A stretch of 33,363 bases of DNA from the NCBI GenBank assembly GCA_947630055.1, contig CANRGA010000010.1, positions 1 to 33,363 of the forward strand. Direction: 5' to 3'. Position 1 is the stretch's first letter, and each line of letters begins with the position of its first letter. Below are positions 23,073-24,314 of this stretch, one piece after another. Made by a program: the position numbers and the translations under genes. The DNA is from an uncultured Bacilli bacterium. GTDB taxonomy: Bacteria > Bacillota_I > Bacilli_A > RF39 > UBA660. The notes under the pieces were generated by a model. The model saw only the letters and a list, made by a program, of their open reading frames with translations. It was not told the origin of the DNA and did not search any database.

Positions 23073-23273
23073 TTACTTTAGAATAATCCATTTCCTTTTT
23101 GTGCCAGCTCCTTCCATAGTGATATATTTATTCTCTTTTAATATTTTAATATATCTTCTAATAGTTCTCTCTGAGCAATAATATTTTTGTGCTAATAAAA
23201 CTTCAGTAACATTATCATTAGTGGCAATTTCCTTATAAATTTTTTTCAGTAATTCTTGATCAATCAATTTCAT
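23073..23273 (-). CDS. Small winged-helix/HTH DNA-binding protein
   Basis: 66 aa from the ATG at 23273. A GTG-initiated form six codons longer is open, but GGAG lies eight bases before this ATG, inside the putative extension, so the short form is chosen. The protein is a single HTH unit: LLKKIYKEIATNDNVTEVLLAQKYYCSERTIRRYIKILKENKYI resembles the HTH_11/DeoR-type domain, with a wing ending TKRKWIILK. There is no effector domain. A TTCACT-N9-AGTGAA inverted repeat lies over its own promoter, suggesting autoregulation. It lies between the phase-variable-looking secreted-protein gene and rplI; target unknown. Confidence 0.72.
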   Translation of the reverse strand: MKLIDQELLKKIYKEIATNDNVTEVLLAQKYYCSERTIRRYIKILKENKYITMEGAGTKRKWIILK

Positions 23274-23286
23274 AAAACTATCTCCT

Positions 23287-23307
23287 TTCACTTATATATA
23301 TAGTGAA
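23287..23307. promoter_or_regulatory. Inverted repeat TTCACT-N9-AGTGAA at the HTH gene promoter
   Basis: Perfect 6-bp arms around TATATATAT, covering the -10 region and the start site of the small HTH gene. Placement and symmetry fit an operator, most simply for the HTH protein itself. Confidence 0.6.
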
Positions 23308-23425: not shown

Positions 23426-24151
23426 TTATTCTGCTTCTTTTGTATCACATTTAAAATCTGTTAAATCAACTTTGACTGTGAATTGCTTATCTGCTAATCT
23501 TTTGCTTTGATCTACATTACTATTTTTTAAACTTAAAGAAGCTTCAAGTTTAGCATTTTGTGATTCACCAGTACCAGTAAATTCAAAATTTACTTTACCA
23601 CTTATACCATCTTCAGCAGCAACTAAGTCAGATAACTTAATTGTATTTGTTAATTTTGCATCTTCGCCAGGTACTAAAGTAATGCCATTACCTGGATAAA
23701 ATACTAATTGAGCTTCATCAGTATCTTCAAATTGAATTGTACCAGCTTCTTCACCAGTAACAGTTAAAGTAGCTTTAATATTAGCAGTACAATAATAGTT
23801 AACACCAGTATCTGCTTTAGGTTCATCTTCACCATTTATTGTAATATTAGCAACATTAAATTTTTCTAATGATGTAGAATTATTTGCTTCTTCTGCTGTA
23901 GCATAATATGTTGTGTTACCTTTAAGAGCCTCAGCCATATCAGCTGCAGTAATTTTTAATTTTAATGTAGAATCTTTTTCATCTAATACAATAGTACCTG
24001 GTGTAAAAGGATCTACAGTACCAGTAATTGTTGCATTTGTTTTTGTACCAGTAGTACTAATTGCAAAGAATGCAAATGTAGCTCCTACTACTGCAACTAA
24101 AAGTGTTGCTACTGCTATTACTGTTAATAACATTGTATTCTTCTTATCCAT
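23426..24151 (-). CDS. Secreted protein with SipW-type signal peptide
   Basis: 241 aa from ATG 24151 (GGAAGGAGGG seven bases upstream). MDKKNTMLLTVIAVATLLV followed by AVVGATFAFFAISTTG is the long hydrophobic signal with the G-A-T-[YF]-A-[YF]-F pattern seen in SipW/TasA-like secreted proteins. The rest is acidic, rich in Thr, Glu and Ala, with beta-sandwich-like strands, a possible disulphide pair (YYCTAN, FKCDTK) and no catalytic motif. A role as a fibre or surface-layer component by analogy with TasA is only a suggestion. An upstream in-frame ATG at 24190 also has a good ribosome binding site. Its promoter has a G8 spacer tract, suggesting phase-variable expression. Own terminator; monocistronic. 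Confidence 0.8.
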   Translation of the reverse strand: MDKKNTMLLTVIAVATLLVAVVGATFAFFAISTTGTKTNATITGTVDPFTPGTIVLDEKDSTLKLKITAADMAEALKGNTTYYATAEEANNSTSLEKFNVANITINGEDEPKADTGVNYYCTANIKATLTVTGEEAGTIQFEDTDEAQLVFYPGNGITLVPGEDAKLTNTIKLSDLVAAEDGISGKVNFEFTGTGESQNAKLEASLSLKNSNVDQSKRLADKQFTVKVDLTDFKCDTKEAE

Positions 24152-24171
24152 TATTTTCCCTCCTTCCTTTA

Positions 24172-24187
24172 TTCTATTTTGATAGAA
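24172..24187 (-). repeat. Hairpin in the 5' leader of the SipW-type secreted-protein gene
   Basis: TTCTAT-CAAA-ATAGAA on the minus strand, a perfect 6-bp stem with a 4-nt loop, between the two possible start codons (24190 and 24151). It starts one base after the upstream ATG. Weak AT-rich stem; any effect on start choice is speculative. Confidence 0.4.
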
Positions 24188-24228
24188 CATTTTTTACCTT
24201 CCTGTAATACTCTTATCTATCTATAAAA

Positions 24229-24259
24229 ATTATACCCCCCCCGGTTTTTGATTTGTCAA
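24229..24259 (-). promoter_or_regulatory. Promoter with G8 spacer tract, SipW-type secreted-protein gene
   Basis: Perfect TTGACA (24259-24254) and perfect TATAAT (24234-24229) on the minus strand, separated by 19 bp rather than the optimal 17. Eight of the spacer bases are a G homopolymer next to the -10. The inferred start is near 24222, giving a leader of about 70 nt to the ATG at 24151. Loss of one or two G would give 18 or 17 bp. Confidence 0.88.
24235..24242 (-). repeat. Homopolymeric G8 tract (candidate phase-variation tract)
   Basis: Eight consecutive G on the minus strand (C on plus) in a genome of roughly 30% G+C; I saw no other G or C run this long in the window (the next longest I noticed is five, in adk). 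It lies entirely within the promoter spacer of a secreted-protein gene. Confidence 0.9.
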
Positions 24260-24289: not shown

Positions 24290-24314
24290 AAAAAAAAGAG
24301 CTTTATTTAAGCTC
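24290..24314 (-). terminator. Rho-independent terminator of the rpsF-ssb-rpsR operon
   Basis: Minus strand GAGCTT-AAATA-AAGCTC followed by eight T, five bases after the rpsR stop. It insulates the following secreted-protein promoter. Confidence 0.92.

Follow-up and report, generated by a model that had tools for sequence, protein, structure and literature searches.

The stretch of DNA analysed here (the window) covers 33,363 bases of an uncultured Bacilli genome at a GC content of 28.7%, and carries on its minus strand a promoter and a surface gene that sit between rpsR and rplI. The promoter, at 24229-24259, reads TTGACA-11-G8-TATAAT and consists of a -35 hexamer TTGACA (24254..24259), 11 bp of spacer outside the tract (AATCAAAAACC, 24243..24253), a G8 tract in the context C-G8-TA with the G on the coding strand (GGGGGGGG, 24235..24242) and a -10 hexamer TATAAT (24229..24234), giving a spacer of 19 bp. 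The original prediction of exact TTGACA and TATAAT boxes 19 bp apart, with eight G next to the -10, is therefore confirmed, on the minus strand. From this geometry transcription is predicted to start 6 to 8 bases beyond the -10 (24221..24223), and on inspection the arrangement TATAAT-N6-A is common to other promoters of the G8 set described below. Between rpsR and the promoter lies a terminator-like hairpin followed by a T run (24298..24314, minus strand). The downstream open reading frame occupies 23426-24190 in full, its likelier start being the ATG at 24151 behind a ribosome-binding site GGAGGG (24158..24163), which places the gene at 23426..24151 (all minus strand). The encoded protein has an N-terminal hydrophobic segment that is SipW/TasA-like by eye, and it gave no match above cut-off in Pfam or NCBIfam. 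A small HTH protein gene (23080-23290, minus strand) lies between the surface gene and rplI, and a similar HTH gene directly follows rpsR in many congeners without the surface gene.

Orthologous promoters were found in two other species (G015 and G021), where the -35 hexamer, the 11 bp of AATCAAAAACC and the G8 are kept, and where the -10 (TATACT in both) and the leader have changed. Comparison of the promoter between relatives, which had been proposed as a check on switching, hence showed a tract that does not vary.

The window has no further run of at least six G or C, so that the earlier impression of a solitary run holds at this scale, but it fails for the genome as a whole. The genome to which the window belongs (G000; 1,194,517 bases in 60 contigs) contains 37 exact G8 runs and one G7, and a search of it for runs longer than G8 found none, G9 included. 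An independent-base model of the same composition predicts about 0.3 such runs, and since 37 were observed their abundance is far beyond chance, which led us to reject a chance origin along with the notion of a unique run. Thirty-five of the 37 read C-G8-TA, and wherever enough contig remains for a following gene to be visible, the G stands on that gene's coding strand. Of these 35, one falls within a coding region and 34 have a promoter-like setting; two of the 34 are truncated by a contig end no more than a few bases from the tract. All 35, the tract at 24235..24242 among them, have exactly eight G, over spacers of 15, 16, 18 and 19 bp. The two remaining G8 runs and the sole G7 are accounted for by a repeat near contig ends (L026, the end of L027 and the start of L374). 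Two copies of this repeat contain GGGGGGGG and a third contains GGGGGGG; it stands without promoter context and resembles the terminus of a mobile element.

Where the target genes are recognisable they encode surface, secreted or envelope products, which bears out the expectation of a secreted or surface target. They belong to several families of signal- or membrane-anchored proteins, in some of which an InlB-type B-repeat or a GLUG motif is present; further targets are an acyltransferase-3 and a DltA-like AMP-binding enzyme. Other members of these surface-protein families have no poly-G and lie behind different TTGACA promoters (L358, L368), and some of these paralogs seem to have an HTH-like gene upstream in the opposite direction.

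About 25 of the promoters in the genome are copies of one near-identical 87-bp cassette, TTGACTCTC-G8-TATTATATAATAATCTTATA..., as would be expected if a single G8 promoter had been copied as a passive passenger of a growing gene family, its run being without function. We consider this very improbable. At least ten other promoters of the genome, including the one at 24229-24259, combine the same G8 with unrelated flanks and different spacing, and these independent architectures disfavour mere copying; moreover, the cassette flanks differ at 2.8% of sites while the tract is interrupted in none of the 25 cassettes, and the same design is also seen in other genera of the family as well as in Faecalibacterium. 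Among the 22 cassettes that could be aligned, there was one tract change vs 28 flank departures. The changed tract is a G6 in an otherwise unaltered cassette (L182; G000:C26:12348-12432), and every other promoter tract in the genome is G8. An exact 37-base cassette search of genome_contigs returned no match, and viral contigs searched for the same promoter at G8 or G9 contained none.

It had been proposed that eight G make the spacer suboptimal and that G6 would give the ideal 17 bp. With -35 and -10 elements assigned by a simple script, total spacers spanned 14 to 20 bp, the tract taking various positions, and were mostly 15-16 or 18-19 bp, 17 bp being rare. The rank correlation between the length of the tract and that of the rest of the spacer was +0.26, without the negative relation that compensation would leave, and tuning of the tract to a 17-bp total is thus unsupported. 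The totals are nevertheless compatible with sigma-A promoters whose strength would depend on spacing, by analogy with tp0126 and porA (PMC7864442). A sigma-B-like -10 (GGGTAT) was considered but not adopted, as TTGAC and TATAAT are kept at 15-19 bp and inspection revealed no GTTT box at the right distance. In G064 and G323, the tract stands about 12 bp upstream of TATAAT, and its length could therefore not alter a normal spacer.

Such constancy under changing geometry invites a second explanation, namely that C-G8-TA is an element of fixed length which coordinates a regulon of surface proteins, either as a site recognised by a regulator or sigma factor of its own or as a stiff spacer in the DNA, its length being conserved because it is read as such and not through slipping. 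We regard this as possible, though our confidence in it is tentative. It fits the exact eight G at all 35 sites across four spacer lengths, the cassette tracts that are never interrupted, the position of the G064 and G323 tracts outside the normal spacer, and the retention of the C before and the TA after the tract even where the -10 is located 3 to 12 bp further on; this conservation of the flanking bases exceeds what slippage requires and counts against slippage. The tract itself, however, floats, lying at distances of 0 to 12 bases from the -35, which speaks against a fixed element.

The one C-G8-TA run inside a coding region (G000:C5:2171; L015) lies 36 nt past the ATG of a surface gene and closes the frame after 19 codons, whereas G6 would open a frame of 702 codons and G9 one of 703 codons. 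A tract near the 5′ end of a gene that leaves the frame open at some lengths only, the arrangement of translational phase variation by simple sequence repeats, is thus present at G000:C5:2171 and not at 24229-24259. Similar coding tracts occur in G030, G033 and G036. In the same kinds of surface gene, frames were closed at the assembled length in L015, L090, L092, L094, L095 and L096 (two tracts) and open in L059 and L093. Tracts of this kind, which lack promoter boxes and break frames, once in the genome of the window itself, count against a fixed promoter element. Separately, a G7 near position 1502 of L071 lies inside a gene that by eye resembles a nucleotidyltransferase of the AbiEii kind; G7 closes its frame, and G6 or G9 would open it.

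Across the 38 genomes of the genus, tracts are present in the majority, with summed G7/G8/G9+ counts of 33/370/153 that include a few coding or unrelated matches, and a control with the pattern read backwards was at or near zero in nearly all 38. The profile differs between species (0/35/0 in G000, 5/45/4 in G021, 9/26/9 in G034 and 1/14/18 in G004), some species having mostly G9, and lengths across the genus run from 7 to 11 G. Four tandem promoters in G004 carry 10, 9, 9 and 8 G with zero flank difference over 45 bp. That congeners have 7 to 11 G, and that identically flanked promoters at times differ in length, is a further point against a fixed length. In other genera of the family tracts are patchy. 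A relaxed pattern scan of public genomes had ‘uncultured Bacilli’ MAGs labelled Lapin among the matches listed, and also, as a surprise, MAGs of Candidatus Faecalibacterium from chicken (loci at 56-66% GC). As the scan imposed the geometry, the geometry that these matches share is not independent evidence, but its recurrence before paralogous lipoprotein genes in Faecalibacterium is. There, TTGACACC-Gn-TATGCTATAAT precedes a lipoprotein family, and in one genome (G332) cassettes that are 98-100% identical carry 7, 8 (several), 9 and 10 G. Evidence that the tract changes faster than its flanks is thus mixed: it appears to do so between paralogs in G004 and in Faecalibacterium, but not at the 24229-24259 locus or in G000. 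These comparisons use one genome per species and MAG consensus sequences, which hide minor tract lengths, and several of the searches imposed G8 or the following TA, with some match lists giving counts that are to be read as “at least”. A literature search of incomplete coverage found no description of poly-G promoters in these Bacilli or Faecalibacterium lineages.

The length differences between paralogs and the out-of-frame coding tracts support slipped-strand phase variation in the lineage. On this comparative evidence, we consider it rather probable that the G8 at 24229-24259 belongs to a genome-wide set of tracts through which surface genes would undergo slippage-based phase variation. 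Nearly all poly-G tracts are located in sigma-A-type promoter spacers, ahead of genes for surface, secreted and envelope proteins, and a few lie within the start of such genes; at all these sites replication slippage would now and then add or delete a G. In a spacer, this would shift the distance between -35 and -10 and, we infer, change promoter strength; in a coding tract, it would change the reading frame. Individual cells would then display different subsets of the surface proteome, and the changes would presumably be reversible within the population, with the tract at 24229-24259 taking part.

As to the switch initially proposed for this promoter, the tract within a near-consensus spacer, the paralog length differences in G004 and Faecalibacterium and the out-of-frame coding tracts speak for it, but variation at the locus itself did not emerge, with G8 in three species and all promoter tracts of the genome at G8 bar one G6. 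Phase variation at the 24229-24259 locus is thus unproven, and since hypermutability was not seen in its genome, membership of the locus in the class is not established. A fixed G8 element stays a real rival because of this uniformity, the G8 of the orthologs in two other species and the missing spacer compensation. Exactly eight G at 35 of 35 sites is an unlikely outcome if lengths are drawn from the genus-wide spread, and in this respect counts against slippage; if slippage does operate in G000, it must be slow, or the length must be strongly held at eight. We suggest that G8 (G9 in other species) may be a mutational resting length, like the G9/G10 peak in Campylobacter. The out-of-frame coding G8 agrees with such a resting length, as selection for expression cannot explain a length of eight there. 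It is, in our estimation, rather unlikely that C-G8-TA is an undescribed fixed-length element of the uncultured Bacilli family and Faecalibacterium, co-regulating a surface regulon via a dedicated factor, with slippage secondary or occasional.

Very large sigma-70-family proteins are encoded in the genus, several copies per genome, and combine sigma regions 2, 3 and 4 with a long extra part (846 aa for L370:738-3275 in G000:C14, and at least 1434 aa for L371:3-4304 in G004:C1). The existence of several such unusual proteins would suit a fixed element read by its own factor, against which stands that no candidate factor is linked to the tracts. With regard to slippage, almost every genome of the genus encodes a full-length MutS, G000 and tract-variable genomes such as G034 among them, and slippage should therefore undergo some repair. 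Loss of mismatch repair as the source of length variability was rejected, because even the variable G034 has full-length MutS. Short proteins that match MutS domain I alone are encoded in G000 at L373:983-1372 (G000:C3), G000:C28:2819-3016 and C43:7591-7743, two of these three genes being about 2 kb from a G8 promoter. The protein scanned has about 130 aa, and many congeners possess several copies in addition to full-length MutS.

Among known systems, Treponema pallidum has poly-G tracts of 7 to 11 in surface-protein promoters (tp0126, of the spacer type, tprE/G/J and tprL), and the tract of tp0126 lies, as here, between -35 and -10 and acts through spacing, best at a distance of 17 (PMC7864442). 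In T. pallidum, variation and reporter effects were measured at a limited number of loci, whereas the present set comprises 34 promoters in one genome, is exactly G8 and is known from assembled sequence. In Neisseria meningitidis, as reviewed in PMC7864442, a homopolymer lies within the spacer of the surface-protein promoter porA, which resembles the arrangement here, and another lies across the -35 of opc, a placement similar to that of the G064 and G323 tracts. The Neisseria device concerns one or two promoters of a pathogen, in contrast to a dispersed promoter class in gut Bacillota, where spacer totals are mostly 15-16 or 18-19 bp and not 17. Tracts of eight or more are predominantly variable both in meningococcus (PMC5084427) and in C. 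jejuni NCTC 11168 (PMC6321876). In scale, the set is like the Campylobacter phasome, with dozens of poly-G tracts of sharply peaked length (9 in 53% and 10 in 26%) in a small AT-rich genome; however, 77-82% of the Campylobacter tracts are in ORFs (PMC6321876), unlike the 34 of 35 in promoters here, where the modal length is 8 and MutS is present. By analogy, the mode of action of the poly-G set is probably closest to that of the tp0126 and porA promoters; in scale it matches the Campylobacter phasome, its tracts lying in promoters instead of ORFs.

The known poly-G contingency promoters come from a small number of pathogens, each with one or a few of them. In the present case dozens of surface-protein promoters carry the device, in a lineage of gut commensals with small genomes and, separately, in a group of Faecalibacterium. 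If the tracts switch, simple promoter repeats would create surface diversity between single cells of gut commensals, which could be measured directly in existing metagenome reads; if they do not, G8 would be a new kind of promoter element.
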